Notes under the pieces: model-generated | The model's input: only the letters and a program-made list of their open reading frames with translations | Told to the model about the DNA's origin: nothing | Database searches by the model: none | Program-made: the position numbers and the translations under genes | From: Bacteroidia bacterium | GTDB lineage: Bacteria; Bacteroidota; Bacteroidia; SXHM01 | Direction of reading: 5' to 3' | Length of the DNA: 32,034 nucleotides | Assembly (NCBI GenBank): GCA_020054035.1 | Contig: JAGVLY010000024.1 | Coordinates: 1-32,034 of the forward strand | Part shown: positions 5,760-26,860 of the stretch, in pieces | How positions within the stretch are numbered: the stretch's first letter is position 1 | How the letters are laid out: each line of letters opens with the position of its first letter

Positions 5760-8700
5760 ATGTCTCTCTTCCACCCTACCGTTGAATTCTGGTTTGCCAA
5801 AAACCTTGGTGAACCTACCGAGGTGCAGCGCCTTGCCTGGAAAGAAATAAAAGCAGGCAACAACACGCTGATTGCAGCACCAACAGGTTCGGGTAAAACA
5901 CTGGCTGCATTTCTTTCGGCTATTGATGATCTGGTAAAACAAAGTCTGGAATTCAGGTTAGAGAATGCAACACAAGTAGTTTATATTTCTCCGCTGAAAG
6001 CGTTGAGCAATGATATTGAGCGCAACCTGAATGTGCCACTATCGGGAATACAAAAAGAGTTGGAAGAACAAGGGTTGTTTCCTCCCGGAATACGTGTTAG
6101 TGTGCGCACAGGCGATACACCACAGGCCGAACGGATAGGGATGATTAAAAATCCTCCGCATATTTTAGTTACCACTCCTGAATCATTATACCTGATGCTG
6201 ACTTCCGTAAACGGAAGAAAAATATTATCCACCGTAAAGACGGTAATTGTGGATGAGATACATGCGCTGGTGGGCGATAAAAGAGGTTCGCATCTTGCGC
6301 TGTCCTTAGAACGTCTGGAAGTTTTAACAAAGAACAGATTGAGGCGCATCGGCATTTCGGCAACACAGAAACCGATTGAACAGGTTGCAGAATTTTTAAC
6401 CGGAACACATGGGAAAGAATATCCTGCCGTAATTGTAAACGCAGGACACAGGCGTAAATTAGACCTTGCCATAGAAGTTCCGCCCTCACCGCTAACGGCT
6501 GTAATGGCAAACGAAGTGTGGGGCGAGATTTATCAGAAATTAGAAGAGTTAATTCTTTCGCATAAGACCACGCTCATCTTTGTAAACACACGAAGATTAG
6601 CCGAGCGACTGGCGCATACCTTAACAGAACGCTTAGGCGAAGATGCCGTAACAGCGCACCACGGCAGCATGAGCAAAGACCACCGCTTTGATGCAGAGCA
6701 GCGGTTGAAGAACGGTTCGCTGCGGGCATTGGTTGCCACGGCTTCATTGGAATTGGGTATTGATATCGGTTCTGTTGATTTGGTTTGCCAGGTTGGTTCT
6801 CCTCGTTCCATTGCTGCATTTCTGCAACGGGTCGGTCGCTCGGGACACAGTGTTAAAGGAACACCCAAAGGGCGTTTATTTCCTTTGAACTTAGATGAGC
6901 TGGCAGAAAGTGTTGCTATTTTAGATGCCGTGAAGCGCGGTGAATTAGATAAAATAATTATCCCCGATAAGCCGCTTGACATCCTTGCACAACAACTGGT
7001 TGCCGAGGTATCATGTGATGAATACAAGGAAGATGATTTGTTTGAATTAGTGAAGAAGGCTTATCCTTATCGCAACTTAGAACGCAAAGAATTTGATGAA
7101 ATAGTAACCATGCTTTCGGATGGCTTTGCCACCAAGCGCGGCAGGCGCAGCGCTTACCTGCACCGCGATATGGTGAACGATACTTTACGCGCCCGCAAAG
7201 GCGCAAAGCTTACCGCCATTGTTTCGGGCGGTGCCATTCCCGATAATTTTGACTACGATGTTATTTTAGAACCTTCGGGCACTTATCTCGGCACGCTGAA
7301 CGAAGACTTCGCGATAGAAAGCATGGCAGGTGATATTTTCCAGCTGGGAAATTCATCGTGGAGAATACTGAATGTGGAAACAGGAAAAGTAAGAGTAGAA
7401 GATGCAGGCGGCATGGCTCCTACCATTCCCTTCTGGTTGGGCGAAGCACCTGGAAGAACGGTGGAGCTTTCGCAAGCAGTTTCAAGATTGCGCGCTGAAA
7501 TTTCAGAGAAATTAGGCAGCAATCATGATCTGCAACTGGAAGAAACTTCCAAAGCCTTGACAGAAGAGTTGGGTTTGTCATCATCTGCTTCCGAGCAGTT
7601 GGTAAACTTTTATGCTTCTGCACAAGCGGCACTGGGAGTAATGCCCACGCAGGAAACATTGGTGATGGAACGCTTCTTTGATGAAGCTGGTGATATGCAT
7701 CTTGTCATACATTCACCTTTCGGAAGCCGCATGAACAGAGCGTGGGGCTTGTCGCTGAGAAAACGCTTCTGCAAGAAATTTAATTTTGAATTACAAGCGG
7801 CAGCAACGGAAGATGCAATCATTCTTTCGCTGGGTTCAACACACAGCTTTCCGCTGGAAGAAGTGTTTCAATACCTGAATGCACAAACCGTGCGCACGGT
7901 GTTGATACAGGCGCTGCTTGATTCACCCATGTTTGAGATACGCTGGCGCTGGAATGCTTCCCGTGCATTGGCAGTGTTGCGCAGAAGAGCAGGAAAAAAA
8001 GTGCCTCCGCAAATACAGCGCATGAACAGCGAAGACCTTATTGCGCTTGTGTTTCCCGACCAGCTTGCCTGTTTTGAAAACATACAAGGCGAACGCGAAG
8101 TGCCTGACCATCCGTTGGTAAATCAGACGATACACGATTGTTTATATGAGGCAATGGACATTGAGCGGTTGGAAAATTTGCTGCGTTCCATAAAAGCAGG
8201 AGAACTGAACTTGGTGGCGAAAGATTTGAAAGAGCCTTCGCCTTTTGCGCATGGAATATTAAATGCGCGTCCTTACGCTTTCTTAGATGATGCACCGTTG
8301 GAGGAAAGGCGCACCAATGCCGTTCGCAACCGCAGGTGGATGGACCCTGAGCAAGCAAAAGATTTAGGAAAATTAGATGAAGCGGCTATTGAGGCCGTAA
8401 AAAAAGAAGCATTTCCGGAAGCAGAAAACTATGATGAATTGCACGATGCGTTGGTGCTTTCGGGCTTTATCACCGAAAAAGAAGGAGAAGAAAATAATTG
8501 GAAAAAGTATTTTGAAGAACTCGTGATTGCAAAACGTGCAACAGTTTTACATTTTCAACATATCCGTTTGTGGGTTGCCGTTGAAAGAGTTCCTCAGTTA
8601 GCGAAAGTTTATTCGCTGAACATGCTCTCCCCCTTTGGGGGAGCCGGAGGGGGCTTTAATCCTTTAGTAACTATTCCCGAAAAGATACAATCTGCTTTTC

Positions 8701-10127
8701 CGGAGAACCAAAATTCATTGGCAGAGATCATTCGCGGAAGATTGGAAATACTCGGGCCGGTAACGGCTTCATCTGTTGCTGAGACAATGGCGTTACCATT
8801 GACTGATGTGGATTTAGCATTGAGTGTTTTAGAAAATGAAGGGTTTGTTTTTCGGGGACAATTCAATCCCGATGAACCGGAGTTAGAGTGGTGCGAGCGC
8901 AGATTATTAGCCCGTATCCACCGCTATACCTTGAAGAAACTGCGCAGCGAAGTGCAGCCGGTGAATGCAGCAGACTTTATGCGTTTCCTGTTTCAGTGGC
9001 AGCAGGTGGAAACAGGCACACAGAGCGAAGGTCCGCAAGCTTTGAAAAAAGTATTGGAACAATTAGAAGGCTACGAAGCGCAGGCAGCAGCATGGGAAAG
9101 CGATATTCTTGCTGCACGTGTAAATGATTACGACCATCACTGGCTGGATGTGCTTTGTCTTTCGGGGAAATTTGCATGGGGAAGGTTCAGAATAAACAAT
9201 AACAGCAAAAATTCAGGGCCGGTAAAAACCACACCTATCTCTATTGTTTCGCGCCCTGCGCTGGGTATCTGGAAAGCAGAAAGCAATGTCGAAAAACCTT
9301 TTGAGCTTTCTCATAACTCAAAGAAAATACAGGAAGTGCTTGCACAATACGGTGCTATGTTCTTCAATGAAATAACTGAAAAGACAGGCTTGATGCGTGG
9401 ACAAACAGAAGAAGCGATGAACGAATTGGTATCGTGCGGGCTGCTGACTTCTGATAGTTTCACGGGCTTGCGGGCATTGCTGCTTCCCGCGAAATACAGC
9501 ACACAGGCGGGAAGGACAAAAAATAATATTGTGTTTACGATGGAACAGGCGGGGAGATGGAGTAGCTTAAGCCTCACCCCTAACCCCTCTCCGAAGGAGA
9601 GGGGAACAGAGCAAGAAAGTAAACGTGCTCTGGAGATGATTGCGCGAACCTTGCTGAAAAGATATGGTGTGGTATTCAGAAGATTGGCAGAGAAAGAAAA
9701 CCTTACTCCACGATGGAGAGAGTTGATAAAGATCTACCGCCTGATGGAAGCACGGGGAGAGATACGCGGTGGACGCTTTGTTGAAGGGATGTACGGTGAA
9801 CAGTTTGCCCTGCCTGAAACAATAGCACTCTTACGCAAAATAAGAAAGGACGAAAAATCAGGAAGATTGATCTCCATAAGTGCTAGTGACCCGCTAAATT
9901 TAACAGGAGTAATTACTCCCGGCAAAAGAGTTTCAGCACTTTACGGAAACCGCATTCTGTTTATGGATGGTATTGCGGTTGCTGTGAAAGACGGAAAAGA
10001 AATTGCACTGCTGCCCGCTGCTGACATTGATGCGTTGAAAGGCCGTGAGTGGCAAGTGCGCCAGGCATTGGTGCAACGGAATATTCCACCAAGACTGAGG
10101 GCTTATCTGGGGAAAGGGATTGGGTGA
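5760..10127 (+). CDS. lhr: Lhr-family (large helicase-related) DEAD/DEAH-box superfamily II helicase
   Basis: 1455 aa; Walker A APTGSGKT, motif II VDEIH, motif III ISATQ, motif [10 protein letters not shown]; long C-terminal region as in Lhr-like proteins. Confidence 0.9.
8624..8654. repeat. In-frame palindromic REP-like element
   Basis: gCTCCCCCtttGGGGGAGccggagggggc, 7-bp perfect stem (8627-8633/8637-8643), encodes SPFGGAGGG within the helicase ORF. Confidence 0.65.
9572..9606. repeat. In-frame palindromic REP-like element
   Basis: cctcacccctaaCCCCTCTCCgaaGGAGAGGGGaa, 9-bp perfect stem (9584-9592/9596-9604), encodes [11 protein letters not shown] within the helicase ORF. I recognise this peptide string as a recurrent one in unrelated bacterial ORFs. 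Confidence 0.75.
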
Positions 10128-10193: not shown

Positions 10194-11279
10194 GTGTCCA
10201 ATAAATTAAACTATAAAGCAGTCGATTTCTTCTGTGGGGGTGGTGGGATGAGCTACGGCATGCAGCAAGCAGGAATTGAAGTTCTCGCAGGAATTGATTA
10301 TGAGCCAACTTGTAAGGAGACATATGAAGCAAACATTAAAAACGCTGAATTTATTTTAGCAGATGTTTTCAATTTGTCAGAAAAAAGTCTTCAAAAAAAA
10401 TTAAATCTCAAAAAAAATGACAATGAACTAATTTTAATTGGCTGTAGTCCCTGCCAGTTTTGGAGCATCATCAATACAGACAAAAATAAATCAGAAAAAT
10501 CTAAAAACCTTCTTGTGGAATTTAGACGATTTGTTGAATATCTAAAACCTGGATATGTTGTTGTAGAAAATGTCCCTGGCGTTTTAAGGAAAAAAGAAGA
10601 AAGCGGATTAGCGTCATTCATAAATTGGTTAGAAGAAGAAAGAAACGGCTACAAAGTTCATTTTGATGTTCACAATGTTAGCGAATATGGAGTTGCTCAA
10701 AACAGAAAACGATTTACATTAATTGCAAACAGAGTTTCGAACGAGGAAATAATCCCATTAAAAAAAGCGGGAGAAAAATTGGCTGTAAAAGATGTGATAG
10801 GTACAGAAAATGGTTTTCCACGAATAGATGCAGGACACAAGGATGATAGTGATTTTCTACATACAGTTCCTTCTATTAGTCAAATCAACAAAGAAAGATT
10901 ACGATTAGTAAAAAAAGATGGTGGTAATCGTTTTGGTTTTGCAAAAAATAAAAGACTGCAATTAAAATGTTTTGTTGACAGAGACGATTCTTTCAAAGAC
11001 ACTTTCGGCAGATTATGGTGGAATAAACCTTCTCCAACTATCACAACAAAATTTTCCAGTATTTCAAATGGACGATTTGTTCATCCCGATGAAGACAGAG
11101 CATTGTCCTTGCGAGAAGGTGCATCATTACAATCATTTCCTAAAAGCTATAAATTTTATGGTAGCAGCGTTTCTTCTATTGCACGAATTATCGGCAATGC
11201 TGTTCCGCCTGAATACGCCAAGCAAATTGGTTTAGCAATCTTAACAAACACTAAAAATGCAAGAAGAAGTAAAAAATGA
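10194..11279 (+). CDS. DNA (cytosine-5-)-methyltransferase
   Basis: GTG start. C5-MTase motifs: I DFFCGGGGMSYGMQQAG, IV GCSPCQFWS, VI VVENVPGV, VIII QNRKRFTLIA, IX LSLREGASLQSFP, X RIIGNAVPP. Confidence 0.93.
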   Translation: MSNKLNYKAVDFFCGGGGMSYGMQQAGIEVLAGIDYEPTCKETYEANIKNAEFILADVFNLSEKSLQKKLNLKKNDNELILIGCSPCQFWSIINTDKNKSEKSKNLLVEFRRFVEYLKPGYVVVENVPGVLRKKEESGLASFINWLEEERNGYKVHFDVHNVSEYGVAQNRKRFTLIANRVSNEEIIPLKKAGEKLAVKDVIGTENGFPRIDAGHKDDSDFLHTVPSISQINKERLRLVKKDGGNRFGFAKNKRLQLKCFVDRDDSFKDTFGRLWWNKPSPTITTKFSSISNGRFVHPDEDRALSLREGASLQSFPKSYKFYGSSVSSIARIIGNAVPPEYAKQIGLAILTNTKNARRSKK

Positions 11280-13158
11280 AGTTTTAGAAATGAAGTTTGA
11301 CCCAAATACAATCGAGCATTTGGGCATACATCAATATTCAACTTTACCACCTGTAATTGCAGAATTAGTATCAAACTCCTATGACGCAGAAGCGGAAGCT
11401 GTAACTATTTATTTAGTTGACAATGGAGATAAAGAAATTACCATTGAAGACAATGGGCACGGGATGACCTTTAATGAGATCAACACAAACTTTCTCTTAA
11501 TAGGCAGAAATAGAAGACACAAGGAGGGCAAACAGAAAAGCAAAAATGATAAACGGCTTGTGATTGGCAAAAAGGGAATTGGCAAACTTTCATTCTTTGG
11601 TATTGCGGGAACAATTGAAGTTGAAACTATTCAAAACTATGTTTTAAATAGCTTCAAAATGGACTGGGATGACTTGAAAAAATTTGGAGAAGAAGATAAA
11701 ACATACACTCCAACGATTTTAAAGAAAGATGAAACAGTTGAGAAGAAACAAGGAACTACAATACGTTTAAAAAATATCAAAAGAAAAACCGCATTTCTTC
11801 CTAAGGATTTAGCGTATTCATTATCTAAAACTTTCACAGTATTTGACGAGCCAGACTTTAAGGTTAAAATAATTCACAACAACGAACCAGATAACGCAAC
11901 CGATGTAACTAACTCTCTTAAGTATTCAGGAATTACAAAACTGCATACATGGAAATTTCCAATAGTATTGAATCCAACAGGGTATGAATATGCCGACAAA
12001 ATCAATGGCGAAATTATTGCAGGAGTTGAAACTGTGCCTTCCTCTCTGAAAGGTGTAGCACTATTTTCAAGAGGTAAATTAGTAAACGAGCATAGTTTTT
12101 ATGATTTATCCGCATCAAGTTTTGGATACGATTACATTTCAGGATGGCTAAATGTTGATTTCATTGACGACTGGAAAAAAGAAGTCATTTCCACCAATCG
12201 CAAATCATTGATTTGGGAGGATGATGATGCTTCAAATTTGAAAAATTATTTAGCCTCAATAATTCCAACTTTCTATAACGAACAACGAGAGAAAAGAGAG
12301 GAAAAAGTTTTAGCAGACTTTAAAACTGAAACTGGAGAGGACATTCCTAAATGGTTAGAATCCCTACCATCACACGAAAATAAACTTGCAGACAAAATTG
12401 TCAAGACAATTTTTAAGAGTGAAATTGAATCGGGAAAAAGAGTTGAACTTATCAAATATGTTAAAGACTCTTTTCAATTTGAAGCATTCAAAGAGTTTGC
12501 AAGTGAACTTGAAGACCTTGAGCAAATAGATACAGCAAGTTTAATTCGCTTAATGAAGGAGTGGGAATTAATTGAAGCAAAAGAAATGTGCAAAATCGCT
12601 ATTGGGCGAATAGAAACAATAAACACTTTTGAAAAGCACATCAAAAATAAAGTGAATGAAGTTCCTACAATGAGTGATTTCTTGAAAAAATTCGCTTGGA
12701 TATTAGACCCAAGAATTCAAGAATTTGAAAATGAAATTTACTATTCTCAATTACTGAAAGAGAAGTATGCAGATGACAAGATTGCGTTCAGAGAATATTA
12801 CGAAGCTGAAGCCATAAATAGACGAATTGATTTTTTATGTATGGGGCTTGCAAGTAACTATTTCATAATTGAACTAAAAAAACCAGAGTTTGTAATTCGA
12901 GAAAAAGATATTAGGCAAGCCGCAGATTACAGGTCATTTATTGAATCTCATTTCGGAAACGAGCCACAGACTATAAAATCGGTTGTTGCTTATGTAATTA
13001 CAGGTTCAATAGACGGAGACAGGCTTGCAGTAGCTGCAATGAAAACATACGAAAAGGCTAACGAAGTTTATGTTCGGACATACCACGAACTTTTACGAAA
13101 TGCAAGAAATTATCATACGGAGTTTATTAAAAAGTATGAGCAGACACAGGTAAAGTAA
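11257..13158 (+). CDS. GHKL (MORC/paraMORC-like) ATPase with candidate C-terminal PD-(D/E)xK nuclease-like domain
   Basis: N-box VIAELVSNSYDAEAE, G1 IEDNGHGM, G2 GKKGIGKLSFFG. C-terminal RIDFLCMG...YFIIELKKP (D...ExK pattern). Overlaps the MTase by 23 bp; the alternative start at 11290 (MKFDPNTIEHLGIHQYSTLPP) would leave about 10 bp spacing. Confidence 0.85.
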   Translation: MQEEVKNEVLEMKFDPNTIEHLGIHQYSTLPPVIAELVSNSYDAEAEAVTIYLVDNGDKEITIEDNGHGMTFNEINTNFLLIGRNRRHKEGKQKSKNDKRLVIGKKGIGKLSFFGIAGTIEVETIQNYVLNSFKMDWDDLKKFGEEDKTYTPTILKKDETVEKKQGTTIRLKNIKRKTAFLPKDLAYSLSKTFTVFDEPDFKVKIIHNNEPDNATDVTNSLKYSGITKLHTWKFPIVLNPTGYEYADKINGEIIAGVETVPSSLKGVALFSRGKLVNEHSFYDLSASSFGYDYISGWLNVDFIDDWKKEVISTNRKSLIWEDDDASNLKNYLASIIPTFYNEQREKREEKVLADFKTETGEDIPKWLESLPSHENKLADKIVKTIFKSEIESGKRVELIKYVKDSFQFEAFKEFASELEDLEQIDTASLIRLMKEWELIEAKEMCKIAIGRIETINTFEKHIKNKVNEVPTMSDFLKKFAWILDPRIQEFENEIYYSQLLKEKYADDKIAFREYYEAEAINRRIDFLCMGLASNYFIIELKKPEFVIREKDIRQAADYRSFIESHFGNEPQTIKSVVAYVITGSIDGDRLAVAAMKTYEKANEVYVRTYHELLRNARNYHTEFIKKYEQTQVK

Positions 13159-13265
13159 TTTGCTTTACAAATAAGTTATTTTTTCGTCTTAGATAAACTA
13201 TTTCTTATGTATCTTGCTACATACCAGAGAGTCCAAAATCCTCGTTTATTATATTTAACATTAAA

Positions 13266-13601
13266 ATGGATTTCAAAGAAATAGAACAAAAGATACTCAA
13301 CTTTCGTGATGAGCGCAACTGGCAGCAGTTTCATCAGATAAAAGATTTACTGCTGGGGCTTAATATTGAAGTGGGCGAATTGCAGGAACTGCATTTATGG
13401 AAAACCGAACAACAACAAACCGAGATAGACCGCGAAAAGATAAAAGACGAACTGGCTGACATTTCTATCTTTCTTATTTACATCAGCAAGCATTATAACA
13501 TTGACCTTAGCGAAGCCATTGCGGCCAAGCTGGAAAAGAACGCAGCAAAATACCCGGTGGAGAAAAGCAGAAATTCAAATAAGAAATACAATGAGTTGTA
13601 G
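13266..13601 (+). CDS. MazG-like / dCTP pyrophosphatase-like nucleotide pyrophosphohydrolase
   Basis: FRDERNWQQFHQIKDLLLGLNIEVGELQELHLW...KDELADISIFLIYISKHYNIDLSEAI: all-alpha NTP pyrophosphatase ExxE / ExxD signature. Confidence 0.85.
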   Translation: MDFKEIEQKILNFRDERNWQQFHQIKDLLLGLNIEVGELQELHLWKTEQQQTEIDREKIKDELADISIFLIYISKHYNIDLSEAIAAKLEKNAAKYPVEKSRNSNKKYNEL

Positions 13602-20561: not shown

Positions 20562-21524
20562 ATGTCCTGGACTTTAGATAAAATATTAGAAGTTTACAAT
20601 ACACCCTTGTTGGAATTAGTTTTCCAAGCACAGCAGGTTCATCGTCAATACCACACCCCAAGCGAGGTGCAGGTTAGTTCACTGCTATCCATTAAAACTG
20701 GAGGCTGTGCTGAAGACTGCGCCTATTGCCCGCAGGCAGCCCGCTACAACACCGATGTTAAGGTGCATAAACTGATGACACAGGAAGAAGTAGTAAGTGC
20801 TGCAACTAAAGCAAAAACAGCAGGTGCATCACGCCTGTGTATGGGAGCTGCCTGGCGCGAAGTGCGTGATAACCGCGATTTTGACAATGTACTGGAAATG
20901 GTAAAAAGCGTGAACGGCATGGGCATGGAAGTATGCTGTACCCTTGGAATGCTTACCGAAGAACAGGCGCAGAAACTGGCTGACGCAGGATTGTATGCTT
21001 ACAACCACAACATTGATACATCAGAAGAAAACTACGATAAAATCATTACTACCCGTACTTATAATGACCGCCTGCACACCATTGAAAACGTGCGCAAAGC
21101 CGGAGTAAGCGTATGTTCAGGTGGAATTATAGGAATGGGAGAAAGTGTGGAAGACCGTGCAGGTATGTTGTTAACTCTTTCCAATCTTGACCCTCAACCT
21201 GAGTCTGTTCCGATTAATGCATTAGTGCCTGTTGCAGGAACTCCTCTTGAAAATCAACCCATTGTTCCTATTTGGGACATGGTGCGCATGGTAGCTACGG
21301 CACGTATAGTAATGCCAAGAACAACGGTGCGCCTTTCTGCGGGAAGAACACGCATGTCGCTGGAAGGACAGGCTTTGTGCTTCTTAGCCGGAGCAAGTTC
21401 AATTTTTGCAGGTGATAAATTATTGACCACTCCCAATCCTGATTTCAATGAGGATATGGAAATGTTCAAACTCTTCGGGTTAACTCCAAAAGAAGCTTTT
21501 AAAGAAGTGGCACATGCACATTGA
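20562..21524 (+). CDS. bioB: Biotin synthase
   Basis: Radical SAM CxxxCxx[50 protein letters not shown]. Confidence 0.96.
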
Positions 21525-22644
21525 TGAGCGCCTGAGCGCATCACTGGAAAAAAGAATTTCCGAAAAAACCTTTCGCTCAATCACGCTGAAAAGCGGATTG
21601 ATTGATTTTTCATCCAACGATTACCTTGGTTTTGCACGCTCTGCAAAACTGAAAGAGAAAATCAAAGAATACGAAAACACAGAACAGAATTTACTGAATG
21701 GCTCTACCGGTTCGCGGCTGCTGTCAGGCAATTCAGCCTTTGCTGAAGAACTGGAAAAGTTTATTGCAGATTATCATAACGCAGAGGCAGCATTACTCAT
21801 CAACTCAGGTTACGATGCAAACCTTGGTTTGTTTTCAGCGCTGGGCAGAAAAGGCGATACTATTATTTATGATGAGCTCATCCATGCATCAGTGCATGAT
21901 GGCATGCGGCTTTCCAAAGCAGATTGCAAACCATTTGCACATAATAACACTGTACATCTTGAAGAACTTTTAAAACAAACAACAGGGCAAATTTTTGTTG
22001 CTGTTGAATCAGTTTATTCAATGGACGGAGACTTTGCTCCATTAAAAGAAATTGCCGCACTCTGCAAAAAATACAACGCCAGTCTTATTGTTGATGAAGC
22101 CCATGCTACAGGAATTTTCGGAGAAAATGGAAAAGGAAGAGTTTGTGAATTAGGTTTGAAAAATGATGTGTTTGCTCGACTGATTACATACGGAAAAGCT
22201 ATAGGGTGCAATGGTGCGGCAGTTATAGGCAGCACATTGTTAAAAAACTACCTCGTTAATTTTGCACGTTCATTTATTTACACAACGGCAGCGCCTGTGC
22301 ATAACTTACATGCAATAAAAAGCGCTTACGATTTATTACTGAAATCTGAAGAAACAATTTCTTCTCTCAAAAAACTGATTGCACTTTTTAAACAGATAAT
22401 AATCACTGTTGATGGAATAAATCTGCACGAAAGCTCCTCTCCTATTCAAAGCATTATTATCCCGGGAAATGAAAAGGTGAGAAATGTAGCAGAACAAATA
22501 CAGGAAAAAGGTTTTGATGTTCGCCCGTTGGTAAGTCCTACTGTGCCTGCAGGACAGGAACGAATAAGAATTTGTCTACACGCTTTTAATACAGAAAAAG
22601 AAATTGAAGATTTGGTTTCAGCAATTCAATTATCGCTGCAATGA
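21514..22644 (+). CDS. bioF: 8-amino-7-oxononanoate synthase (AONS family)
   Basis: [41 protein letters not shown]-Lys region [13 protein letters not shown]; overlaps bioB by 11 bp. Confidence 0.92.
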
Positions 22645-23249
22645 GAAAGATATTTGTAACCGGAATTGGAACTGGTATTGGTAAAACAATTATTTCCGCT
22701 TTGCTTACAGAAAAATTGAAAGCCGATTACTGGAAACCTGTTCAATCAGGAAACCTCGATGACACAGATACCGATTTAGTACGAAGATTAGTTTTTAACA
22801 ACCTATCCGTTTTTCATCCTGAGACATTCAGATTAAAGCAACCCCTATCGCCTCACGTTGCCGCTGAAATTGATGGAGTTGAAATAAATTTGGAAGATTT
22901 TAAAATTCCTGAAACAAAAAACAACTTAGTGATTGAAGGCGCAGGCGGGTTGATGGTTCCGCTTTCAAACCAACTCTTTGTTATTGATTTGATAAAGCAT
23001 ATAAATGCAGAAGTAGTTCTTGTTTCACAGAACTACTTAGGCAGTATCAATCACACGCTGCTATCAGCAGAGGCATTGAAATCAAGAAATATAAATGTAA
23101 CGGGGATAATTTTTAATGGCGAAACTTATCCGCAGGGTGAGCAGATAATACTGCAGCACACCGGACTTCGGTGTTTGGCAAGAGTGCCGCAGATGAATAA
23201 TATTTCGCGAGAGAGCATAAAGCTGTTTGCTGAAAAGTTAGAATTGTAG
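22641..23249 (+). CDS. bioD: Dethiobiotin synthetase
   Basis: VTGIGTGIGKTIISALL P-loop, WKPVQSG, VIEGAGGLMVPL; ATGA overlap with bioF. Confidence 0.94.
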   Translation: MRKIFVTGIGTGIGKTIISALLTEKLKADYWKPVQSGNLDDTDTDLVRRLVFNNLSVFHPETFRLKQPLSPHVAAEIDGVEINLEDFKIPETKNNLVIEGAGGLMVPLSNQLFVIDLIKHINAEVVLVSQNYLGSINHTLLSAEALKSRNINVTGIIFNGETYPQGEQIILQHTGLRCLARVPQMNNISRESIKLFAEKLEL

Positions 23250-23255
23250 TTCGGA

Positions 23256-23384
23256 TTACATCCCAACTTCGTCACCACTAATAATATGAGTAGGTGAAGG
23301 TTGTGCAGTTGCAGTAGTGTTGCTAGAGCCGCTTCCAACTAATGTTGAAACTGCGATAATGATGGTGGTAATTGCTGAAATCAT
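23256..23384 (-). CDS. Uncalled 42-aa small secreted/membrane peptide, copy 1: MISAITTIIIAVSTLVGSGSSNTTATAQPSPTHIISGDEVGM
   Basis: ATG at 23384, TAA at 23256. Paralogous to copy 2, with differences mostly synonymous; below the 60-aa cutoff of the ORF track. Confidence 0.7.
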   Translation of the reverse strand: MISAITTIIIAVSTLVGSGSSNTTATAQPSPTHIISGDEVGM

Positions 23385-23568
23385 GGTGTTTGTTTTTTTA
23401 AGAGTTAGTAATTGATTATTTATTTTTACATTCCAACTTCGTCTCCGCTGATAATGTGAGTAGGTGAAGGTTGTGCAGTTGCTGAAGTGTTGCTTGAACC
23501 GCTTCCGATTAATGTTGATACTGCAATGATGATGGTGGTAATTGTTGAGATCATGGTGTTTGTTTTTT
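23259..23568 (-). repeat. 170-bp-period tandem duplication carrying the two small genes
   Basis: Homologous blocks 23259-23398 and 23429-23568; start codons 170 bp apart. Confidence 0.85.
23426..23554 (-). CDS. Uncalled 42-aa small secreted/membrane peptide, copy 2: MISTITTIIIAVSTLIGSGSSNTSATAQPSPTHIISGDEVGM
   Basis: ATG at 23554, TAA at 23426. 39/42 residues identical to copy 1; shared leader AAAAAACAAACACC-ATG. Confidence 0.7.
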   Translation of the reverse strand: MISTITTIIIAVSTLIGSGSSNTSATAQPSPTHIISGDEVGM

Positions 23569-23705
23569 GAGGTTTGTAATAAAGTTTAATTGGGTGCTTT
23601 TAGTTTTTTAGTTGCACTTTAGTTTGGTCGTTTATCGAATAGCATGTAAATTGTAGCCGACTATTCCAAAAAAATAACTATAGTGAAATCACCCTGAAAG
23701 CCGCG

Positions 23706-25262
23706 ATGCGAGAGGAAAACATACAACACCTGAAGCACATTGTTGACGCACTCAATAAAAATGAGAAAGAGGTTCTTGTTGAATACCTCAAGGCATTTGA
23801 CAGCCGCTCAAGTGGCTACAAGCCAAAGACTCTAATCATTTTAGACTTGTTGTTAAAAAACGATGACTTATCGATAATCAATAAGTATTTGAAGAAGAAA
23901 TTCGGGGCTAAGTCGGAAGATGCACTACGAATGATGATGTATCGCCTGAAAGAAAAAATAGGCGAAAGTTTAGTGTTGGACGTAAATATTATGCGTGAAG
24001 GGGTCTACAGTGAACTTTCGCAGGCACGTGCAAACATTGCGAAGAAAAAAATCATTGCACTTATTTACACATCAAGAGGAATAGCACATGAAACCCTTGA
24101 GTTGTATGATAAGGTAATTTCTCTGGCAAAAAAATTTGAGTTCTATAACGATCTGATAGAGGTGTTGATGTATAAGCAGCAACACGTAGGAATTAGGGAA
24201 GGGAAAAAAGCATATAACAAGCTTACAGAAGAAATCAACTTCTATGAAAAAAGCCGCACTGCAGCAAATGATGCAATAAAGGCATACTATGAAGTATCTA
24301 TTAACTGGGGCTTTAAAGGACTGAACAGAAATGTTCCCGATCCGGGGTATATTACTTTTCTTGAAGATAAACTCTCAAAACTCAAAAAGGACTTTGAAGA
24401 GACTTCCTCCGCTTTGGTTGGTTATTACTACTATACTATTAGTGTAGAATATAATCAGGTTCTTCATTTTGGAAAAAAAGCCAGTGAGTATTGTAACTAT
24501 CTGGTTGATCTGGTAAAAAATAATCCTTCCATTTATTTGAAACTAAGATTAGGAAACGTTTACCTTAATTACAGTCAGAATGAATTATTCAATTATGAAT
24601 TTAATTCAGCTTTACAAAATGCATTGGAAGGAAAGAAGTGTTTCAATACCGGCACCTATAATTACAACAACAGTCTTGAACTTGAATTTTATGCAAATTT
24701 CTACTCCGGTAATCTGAAGGATGCTACTACTACGATTGAAACACTTATTCAAAACACAAAAACAGATAAAAGCGAATTCTCTACTGCAAAGCGACATTAC
24801 CTCTTAGCCTGCACCTATTTCGCGCAGAAACAATTTATCAAAGCAAATCGCACCTTACAGTTTACTTCATCGGCCGAAAAAGACAAAGAAGGCTGGAACA
24901 TCGGTATGCGTATTTTCAATATTATGAATACAGTAGAAAATGCTCAGTATGACCAAGCCGATTTACTGATTATGAATTTACGCCAGTTCATCAAAGAAGC
25001 ACTGAAACTCAAATTTGTTCCCGAACGCGATAAAATCATTCTGGAAATACTGCTTGAACTTAGAAAACAAGGCTATGATTTTGAGAAAATAGTTAAAACA
25101 AAGCATCAGCAATTGGAACAACTTGCTAATGTTAAAGGAAACCACTCATGGCAAATTCAATCACCTGAACTTATTGTGTTCCATCGCTGGGTAGTTGCAA
25201 AGGCAAAAGAAAAATTTTATGAGCCTGTTTATAGAATGGAAGTAGTAAACAGTATTGACTAA
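23706..25262 (+). CDS. Large helical, probably TPR-like protein of unknown function (518 aa)
   Basis: Helix-rich throughout; repeats such as ALQNALEGKKCF, KRHYLLACTYFAQKQFIKANRTLQF. No signal peptide and no canonical HTH recognised. Confidence 0.7.
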   Translation: MREENIQHLKHIVDALNKNEKEVLVEYLKAFDSRSSGYKPKTLIILDLLLKNDDLSIINKYLKKKFGAKSEDALRMMMYRLKEKIGESLVLDVNIMREGVYSELSQARANIAKKKIIALIYTSRGIAHETLELYDKVISLAKKFEFYNDLIEVLMYKQQHVGIREGKKAYNKLTEEINFYEKSRTAANDAIKAYYEVSINWGFKGLNRNVPDPGYITFLEDKLSKLKKDFEETSSALVGYYYYTISVEYNQVLHFGKKASEYCNYLVDLVKNNPSIYLKLRLGNVYLNYSQNELFNYEFNSALQNALEGKKCFNTGTYNYNNSLELEFYANFYSGNLKDATTTIETLIQNTKTDKSEFSTAKRHYLLACTYFAQKQFIKANRTLQFTSSAEKDKEGWNIGMRIFNIMNTVENAQYDQADLLIMNLRQFIKEALKLKFVPERDKIILEILLELRKQGYDFEKIVKTKHQQLEQLANVKGNHSWQIQSPELIVFHRWVVAKAKEKFYEPVYRMEVVNSID

Positions 25263-25639
25263 TTGCAGCCACACTCCTGCCCTGCCCTTCTGACAGCATT
25301 CAGCACTACAACAGTATCACAAAGTGAAAAATCCATTTGGATTTTATCTTCACTTATTTCAAGCAGGTAGTATTTACAAGGTTTTTCACGCACTCTACTT
25401 TTATCAAAATTCACTTCTGTCTTTTTAATAATTGAAGCAATGCTGTCTTTATTCAAATTCAGGCAAGCCAATTGACAAATTGCTTTTTCTGAAATCACAG
25501 GTTTGCGCTCTATGATTTCTGTTTTTACACGTTCGCCCGGCATCCAGAAGTCAAAACTTCTTCCGCGCATCAGCAAAAAATAAATAAAGATTGCACCAAT
25601 GGTGAAGCCAATTATATAATAGAATACCCGTTTAGCCAT
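25259..25639 (-). CDS. Hypothetical single-pass membrane protein
   Basis: MAKRVFYYIIGFTIGAIFIYFLLMRG N-terminal TM; start directly after the ald stop (TAAATG). Confidence 0.7.
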   Translation of the reverse strand: MAKRVFYYIIGFTIGAIFIYFLLMRGRSFDFWMPGERVKTEIIERKPVISEKAICQLACLNLNKDSIASIIKKTEVNFDKSRVREKPCKYYLLEISEDKIQMDFSLCDTVVVLNAVRRAGQECGCN

Positions 25640-26860
25640 TTAAAATGCTGCCAGCAACAACTCTATATCCGTGTAAGGAATTTTATAGGTATCGCCAAGA
25701 AATTTATTAGTGAGCTTACCGTTGTAAAGATAAATACCATGTCTCAGACCCTGATTATTGCGTATCATATTTTTCATTCCACCGCTGTCGCCAACATTGA
25801 GCAACATAGGTGCAAAAATATTACTCAAGGCATGAGATGCTGTTTGTGCAACACGCGATGCAATGTTTGGAACACAATAGTGTGTTACCCCATGTTTAAT
25901 GAAAACAGGATCAGCGTGACTGGTAACACGCGATGTTTCAAAACATCCTCCTTGGTCAATGCACACATCAATAACAACTGAACCCTCTTGCATATTACTT
26001 ACCATTTCGTCAGTTACAAGACAAGGTGTTTTACCGGATTTGGAACGAATAGCACCTATCACCACATCCGCACGCATTAAGGCTTTTGCCAAAATTTTAG
26101 GTTGTATGATGGATGTATAAATCCTTCTGCCAATATCGTTTTGCAAACGTGAGAGTTTATAAATGGAATTATCAAACACTTTTACGTTTGCACCTAAACC
26201 CAATGCGGCACGTGCTGCTGATTCACCAACAGTTCCCGCACCAATAATAACTACTTCCGTTGGAGGAATTCCGCTGATACCACCCAGCAACATACCACGC
26301 CCTTCGTTTACATTGCTCAAATACTCGGCTGCTATCAACACGGCTGTGCTTCCTGCAATTTCGCTCATGCTACGCACAAAGGGATAAATCCCTACTTTGT
26401 CTTTTATGTAATCGTAAGCAATGGCACTGGCTTTTTTTGCCATTAATTGTTTTAAAAAGTTTTCGGGTTGAATGGTTAATTGCAGTGCAGAGAATAACGT
26501 TTGACTCGGCTGCATAATCTCAATCTCTTCTAATGATGGCGGAGCAACTTTTAAAACAATATCGGCTTTGTAAACTTCTTTTATATCATAGGCAATCTGC
26601 GCTCCTGCTTCACTGTAATCAGTGTCGGTAAAATTTGCGCCTTTTCCCGCATTGGTTTCAATTACTATTTTATGTCCGTTGGCTACCAATAGTTGAACTG
26701 CATCCGGAACAAGTGGTACGCGATTTTCCTGAAAATGCGTTTCTTTAGGAATACCAATATAAAGGTCTTGCTGCTTACGACCTACTTCTAGCATTTCTTC
26801 CTGCGGCATCAGTCCTGCCGAAGTAAGCGTAAAAAATCCACTGCGTTTTTGTTCCATCAT
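25640..26860 (-). CDS. ald: Alanine dehydrogenase family protein
   Basis: IGIPKETHFQENRVPLVPDAVQLL, VVIIGAGTVGESAARAALGLGANVKVFD, VIDVCIDQGGCFETSRVTSH. Confidence 0.87.
   Translation of the reverse strand: MMEQKRSGFFTLTSAGLMPQEEMLEVGRKQQDLYIGIPKETHFQENRVPLVPDAVQLLVANGHKIVIETNAGKGANFTDTDYSEAGAQIAYDIKEVYKADIVLKVAPPSLEEIEIMQPSQTLFSALQLTIQPENFLKQLMAKKASAIAYDYIKDKVGIYPFVRSMSEIAGSTAVLIAAEYLSNVNEGRGMLLGGISGIPPTEVVIIGAGTVGESAARAALGLGANVKVFDNSIYKLSRLQNDIGRRIYTSIIQPKILAKALMRADVVIGAIRSKSGKTPCLVTDEMVSNMQEGSVVIDVCIDQGGCFETSRVTSHADPVFIKHGVTHYCVPNIASRVAQTASHALSNIFAPMLLNVGDSGGMKNMIRNNQGLRHGIYLYNGKLTNKFLGDTYKIPYTDIELLLAAF

Follow-up and report, generated by a model that had tools for sequence, protein, structure and literature searches.

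The present study describes a locus of a Bacteroidia bacterium in which two tandem genes for 42-residue peptides diverge from a gene for a leaderless 518-residue protein with a tetratricopeptide repeat (TPR) fold. We consider that this locus probably (at a probability of about 0.6) constitutes a peptide-ligand/receptor regulatory module that works like the RRNPP systems. It lies in the window, i.e., the whole 32,034-nucleotide stretch of DNA analysed here. Intracellular sensing of secreted peptides has so far been described as a trait of the Gram-positive Bacillota, and the surveys of intracellular peptide-sensing systems that we consulted covered Firmicutes and viruses (PMC10075063, PMC9765709). 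We found no earlier description of the gene pair in the open-access literature, and it is apparently undescribed. If the proposed reading is true, it would open peptide communication in one of the dominant phyla of soil, water, and gut. Furthermore, the analysis of the locus names the exact peptides for synthesis and the promoters to watch. All results are computational and come from genome sequences, many of which are MAGs, and the gene calling was crude.

In the model that we propose, the product of each small gene would be a precursor in which a dispensable spacer separates a hydrophobic leader at the N-terminus from a tail formed by the ~9 C-terminal residues (here IISGDEVGM). This tail would be the ligand, probably after export and proteolysis. 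The 518-residue protein would bind the tail in its TPR superhelix. Its N-terminal five-helix domain would relay the output. The likeliest place for this is the divergent promoter that both sides share, which would make the peptide genes autoregulated; the receptor or a partner may bind the conserved DNA elements. Tandem gene copies and internal tail repeats could raise the dose or diversify the signal, which would pass between cells by export and re-import. Coordinates of the features are given in Table 1.

Table 1. Features of the locus in window coordinates, with the basis for each.
Feature	Position	Strand	Basis
Peptide gene, copy nearest the receptor, MISTITTIIIAVSTLIGSGSSNTSATAQPSPTHIISGDEVGM	23426..23554	-	ORF; purifying selection between copies; same position in sister genomes
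Peptide gene, distal tandem copy, MISAITTIIIAVSTLVGSGSSNTTATAQPSPTHIISGDEVGM	23256..23384	-	ORF; 143-nt direct repeat with the other copy; purifying selection
Tail codons IISGDEVGM, proximal copy, proposed ligand (putative binding)	23429..23455	-	C-terminal 9 codons, kept across the genus; related tails elsewhere
Tail codons IISGDEVGM, distal copy	23259..23285	-	Same basis as the proximal copy
Shared divergent promoter region, first peptide gene to receptor gene	23555..23705	.	90% mean column identity, seven genus sequences
Strongly conserved element ATGCTATTCGATAAACGACCAAACTAAAGTGCAAC, candidate operator (putative function)	23611..23645	-	25-bp core identical and single-copy in six genus genomes; TATCGATAAACGACCAAAC kept in a clade with receptors 40-43% identical
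Receptor-regulator candidate, 518 aa	23706..25262	+	AF2 pLDDT 92.2, pTM 0.87; TPR matches; conserved pairing
N-terminal five-helix domain, residues 1-95, candidate effector domain	23706..23990	+	AF2, full protein and domain alone
TPR-like helix pairs, residues 103-474, candidate peptide-binding superhelix	24012..25127	+	AF2 helices; Foldseek matches

Both 42-codon ORFs are real coding genes. They are present in the window with the sequences and the identical 15-residue tail that the original prediction had read, and a tandem repeat holds both, its copies being 89% identical and 170 bp apart. The same A-rich stretch (AAAAAACAAACACC-ATG) precedes each copy. The 14 codons that differ between the copies carry 13 synonymous and 3 non-synonymous changes (pS 0.41, pN 0.03), which indicates that the ORFs are genes under protein-level selection. 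The 15-residue tail had been called invariant; this applies to the two copies of the window, whereas across species the conserved unit is the last ~9 residues (IISGDEVGM). A signal-peptidase-like cleavage site between A-T-A and Q, also proposed at the outset, is restricted to the window species and has no wider conservation. The peptide genes converge on the end of a group of biotin-synthesis-like genes (bioB/bioF/bioD, by eye) at window positions 20562-23249.

Within the genus, the TPR gene is present in 7/7 genomes at 80-94% identity, and all seven carry tandem or single peptide copies at the same site. The divergent peptide genes are legible in six genomes, in 2, 3, 4, 4, 2, and 1 copies; in G001, a contig end cuts a peptide copy. 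Where the upstream region is legible, 149-153 bp separate the start of the first peptide gene from that of the TPR gene. Full-length peptide matches are 51-62% identical to those of the window, and the corresponding receptors 91-94%. The precursors of the genus keep leader and tail, while the spacer is variable and is absent in a 29-aa form (MIATISTILVAASILVGTSA-IITTDQTGM). Four copies of this form in one genome show up to 8 synonymous and 0 non-synonymous changes, and the 29-aa versions in two sister genomes likewise differ between copies by synonymous changes only. The consensus of the genus tail is I-I-[ST]-x-[DE]-[EQ]-[VT]-G-M. A second receptor-peptide pair also occurs in the genus (L129:3256-4710 and L138:3268-4722, with divergent upstream ORFs). 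Its peptides, MATLLAILLSLNLITS...IIWETNEK, are found in two copies, and its TTAGTCGAAG/TTAATCGAAA elements stand 21 bp apart.

The original prediction stood or fell with co-occurrence of such small ORFs with the family of the 518-residue protein in other genomes, and this pairing holds across Bacteroidota. By profile search, the family is present in 116 of 396 sampled Bacteroidia genomes (95 of the 340 good genomes) and in 43 of 300 genomes of a phylum sample, with another class represented among the 43. We read the upstream gaps of ~125 family genes, and most had a small divergent ORF with a hydrophobic N-terminus upstream. At gaps of at least 250 bp and a stricter hydrophobicity cutoff, a divergent hydrophobic ORF was found for 60/100 members of the family, compared with 1/18 control genes taken from these loci. 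The family sample contains closely related sequences and, in a few cases, truncated duplicates of loci from the genus, and the control set is small. Same-strand hydrophobic ORFs under these settings numbered 15/100 for the family and 8/18 for the controls. At gaps of at least 350 bp and a cutoff of 2.2, the divergent counts were 66/92 and 1/17, respectively, and 181 of 1840 shuffled family gaps (~10%) scored. Tandem similar ORFs occurred in 14/114 family gaps, compared with 0/30 controls and 1/114 on the opposite strand.

Presence and leader class of the partner track the receptor tree: when each receptor was labelled by hand as having a short partner, a long one, or none seen, a FastTree tree with several long branches required 22 changes vs 48.9 for shuffled labels. 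All long-type partners fall within one receptor clade of 30. No partner was detected in the upstream gaps of family genes in some receptor clades, which possibly have another ligand or have lost the partner; clades in which no divergent hydrophobic ORF was detected are those around L023, L118, L143, L145, L147, L151, L155, L158, and L167. A related TPR subfamily (mostly MANQPND..., ~60 bits) showed no such small ORFs at nine loci. Receptor paralogs number 4-9 in each of four f37 genomes, and tblastn found no plasmid or phage homologs of the window receptor. Among named isolates, Acidiluteibacter ferrifornacis S-15 has the receptor, on a contig that begins a short way ahead of the gene.

Outside the genus, the precursors include MELLIAVLIAFGVVSS...IIGLEETDF, MIEVILAVLISTGSV...RIVDVEDTGL, MSTIILLVSMLFSG... 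with three IIVDEIGH units (in two ORFs), two copies of MELLVAFLIAFGVV...IIWGAEGDDF, MSSIIISMLLALN... with five KPSTMFDQTDG units, and, in another clade, MTALITILISLLGYG...; internal tail repeats are found in the precursors of several clades. Many tails have in common a motif of the type I-I-x-x-[DE]-[DE]. Among 58 hand-picked peptides, the genus left out, the pattern [IVL][IV].{1,3}[DE][DEQ] fell within the last 15 residues of 20, vs a mean of 3.0 in shuffled tails, and of 8/41 vs 1.7 after removal of similar tails; the pattern was widened after some tails had been seen, and these figures are descriptive. The motif is missing from several clades, e.g., those with GGW.DW or SGWGLK tails. In one clade, secreted-type partners of ~90-100 aa bear an HHHH or SHHH stretch and conserved cysteines (upstream ORFs of L095, L030, and L015).

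The leaders bear directly on where the tails would act. As had been remarked for the window peptides, a basic n-region is lacking in the short class: K/R occurs within the first 8 residues in 0/37 short precursors, compared with 21/21 long ones. The long precursors belong to a receptor clade whose partners of ~90-130 aa have K/R-containing Sec-like leaders and tails often like IIGHEDV or IVGHDDI. Since the short leaders are unlike ordinary Sec signals in this respect, ordinary Sec export of the short class is doubtful. The small proteins could instead remain within the inner membrane or at its surface and present their acidic tail on the cytosolic side, where they would tether or titrate the TPR protein, and the pair would be an internal sensor (e.g., of membrane state or export capacity) rather than a cell-to-cell signal. 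Such an arrangement would also make re-import needless, as the leaderless TPR protein should be cytosolic. However, the clade with ~100-aa partners combines Sec-like leaders with similar tails, which places those tails outside the cytosol, and the repeated tails within one precursor resemble excisable units. We regard retention at the membrane as unlikely.

Bacteriocin-like and RiPP clusters commonly have small precursors with leaders, genes in tandem, and rapid divergence. By this likeness, the small genes could specify bioactive peptides for secretion, either bacteriocin-like or natural products of ribosomal origin, and the TPR protein would be their regulator, chaperone, or immunity factor and not the receptor of a signal. 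Yet no modification enzyme, protease, or exporter recurred beside the pair among 30 downstream genes, the precursors matched no Pfam or NCBIfam precursor family above cutoff, and the tail is under purifying selection between copies. A ribosomal peptide precursor, one of the alternatives named along with the original prediction, is a poor fit, and we find it quite improbable that the genes serve this purpose. The other, a type I toxin-like membrane peptide whose proximity to the TPR gene is incidental, also fits poorly and has very little probability: size, hydrophobic N-terminus, and tandem copies are alike, but the pairing with the TPR family is phylum-wide, the hydrophilic tail is as strongly conserved as the leader, and no Rfam family, Rfam covering known RNAs, was matched in 22500-25700.

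The 518-residue product of the divergent gene is leaderless and helix-rich, as had been described, and the AF2 model, built with 108 homologs, is all helical and confident (Table 1), the five-helix domain being followed by TPR-like pairs. The TPR superhelix that the original prediction had suspected is borne out by Foldseek, which matched LGN/Pins, a STAND TPR sensor, and designed TPRs and, among bacterial peptide receptors, Rap of Phi105 with peptide, RapF with peptide, and RapI. The sequence profile matched generic TPRs, RapJ (8e-7), and NprR (4e-3) via the repeats only, with TPRs of designed and eukaryotic proteins ranking ahead of RapJ and NprR. Neither Pfam nor NCBIfam has a model that covers the protein. 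Residues conserved in the family comparison include K394, N398, R402, R441, W482, E488, and W495. The basic ones among them would suit acidic tails, with a hypothetical placement in the groove.

The N-terminal domain has no significant PDB relative by Foldseek or profile search, in agreement with the earlier remark that the partner has no recognised HTH or Rap domain. Its last helix is basic, and R80 is near-invariant. Helices 3-5 recall the recognition region of OmpR/SARP winged helices; an HTH in this domain was rejected after Foldseek and profile search gave nothing significant. At the other end of the gene, a 126-aa protein is encoded convergently (25259-25639), overlapping the TPR stop by 4 bp, and adjoins the TPR gene in several sister genomes.

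RRNPPA receptors have 5-9 TPRs and a variable N-terminal domain (HTH, or the Rap three-helix bundle), and their adjacent propeptides of 50-120 aa give a mature pheromone of 5-10 aa, usually C-terminal, which is re-imported by Opp (PMC9765709, PMC11343458, PMC3601957). The window protein has the superhelix, and most of its family has the adjacent small gene (in the genus, every member). The small gene encodes a hydrophobic leader and a conserved ~9-aa tail, the short class being devoid of K/R in its first 8 residues. In contrast, the N-terminal domain has five helices in place of an HTH or three-helix bundle, and homology to the known receptors is TPR-mediated, with none specific to a subfamily.

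Rap-Phr resembles the present pair in that a cytosolic TPR receptor, whose N-terminal domain is helical but not an HTH, is encoded beside a small precursor with a C-terminal ligand segment (here proposed), and the duplicated pheromone units known from one Phr-type precursor (PMC11343458) recall the tail repeats seen here. It differs in that Rap has a three-helix bundle (PMC3601957) where we find five helices of no known fold, in that the precursor gene is downstream there and divergent here, and in the phylum; the similarity runs only via generic TPRs. Rgg-SHP and ComR-ComS share with our locus the short hydrophobic precursor and, as we propose, autoregulation. Rgg/SHP pairs with divergent gene order are also known. 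However, those receptors have an N-terminal HTH (PMC9765709), and none was detected here. NprR and PlcR are likewise TPR peptide receptors with an adjacent propeptide, and NprR was matched through its TPRs, whereas they have an HTH effector domain and a downstream propeptide (PMC9765709).

On present evidence, the family would work like an RRNPP system; because no helix-turn-helix was found and the similarity to Rap and NprR runs only through TPRs, we do not claim RRNPP membership. An RRNPP-like peptide-sensing pair in a diderm, as first proposed, is a good candidate in view of the conserved pairing and the superhelix, while its effector domain is neither a recognisable HTH nor Rap. A broader reading is that cytosolic peptide-gated TPR regulators with fast-diverging propeptides form a phylum-wide RRNPP-like pheromone system that evolved independently in the diderm Bacteroidota. 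The effector domain of this system would be of a separate kind, and its peptides would have a way across both membranes. We advance this broader reading tentatively, at somewhat below even odds.

The region between the divergent genes carries conserved DNA elements. Throughout the genus, a nearly invariant block, CATGCTATTCGATAAACGACCAAACTAAAG, stands between the peptide and TPR starts. Each of the six genomes searched has this block once, and no further copies that could serve as regulon markers were found there with up to 3 mismatches allowed. In the f9 clade, where receptor identity to the window protein is 40-43% (38% in L098), TATCGATAAACGACCAAACGAAAG is kept at the same position, and part of the clade has an inverted partner, GTCGTTTATCGATA, beside it. 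The 11-mer GTCGTTTATCG (at most 1 mismatch) occurs in 14/124 family gaps, many of them from close relatives, vs 0/30 control gaps, and in 5 of 49 de-duplicated regions vs 0.1 expected. Other clades have pairs of TCGA cores with a spacing of 19-21 bp, in 7/49 regions vs 0.39 shuffled (six pairs at exactly 21 bp; one such pair also in 1/30 control gaps), or pairs of TGTC cores with a spacing of 19-20 bp, in 9 regions vs 0.36. The cores of this region were found by exploring the same data used for the counts. In a neutral scan of direct-repeat spacing over the 49 de-duplicated gaps, the excess was greatest at 28 bp (13 regions vs 4.0), and 19-21 bp came next. TTTGTCC is enriched on the peptide strand (11/49 vs 0.8), an excess for which the Bacteroidota -33 promoter box may partly account, and the fuller -33/-7 pattern is present in 8/49 regions vs 1.0. 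The conserved paired elements would be the sites of a regulator, and this regulator is probably the TPR protein itself, because no other gene is co-conserved.

No recurring operon partner that would name the output was found among the 30 downstream genes, which points to targets in trans or to the peptide genes themselves. As candidates for a putative re-import, OppA-type binding proteins are present in 6/6 genus genomes searched and POT transporters also occur in the genus; no OPT transporter was found in the genus genomes. Elsewhere in the window, a large helicase-like ORF (5760-10127) holds a 12-residue stretch, which presumably resembles a translated interspersed Bacteroidota repeat. It is followed by a group of C5-methyltransferase-like, ATPase-like, and small MazG-like genes (10194-13601, by eye), which could be a defence or modification cassette.
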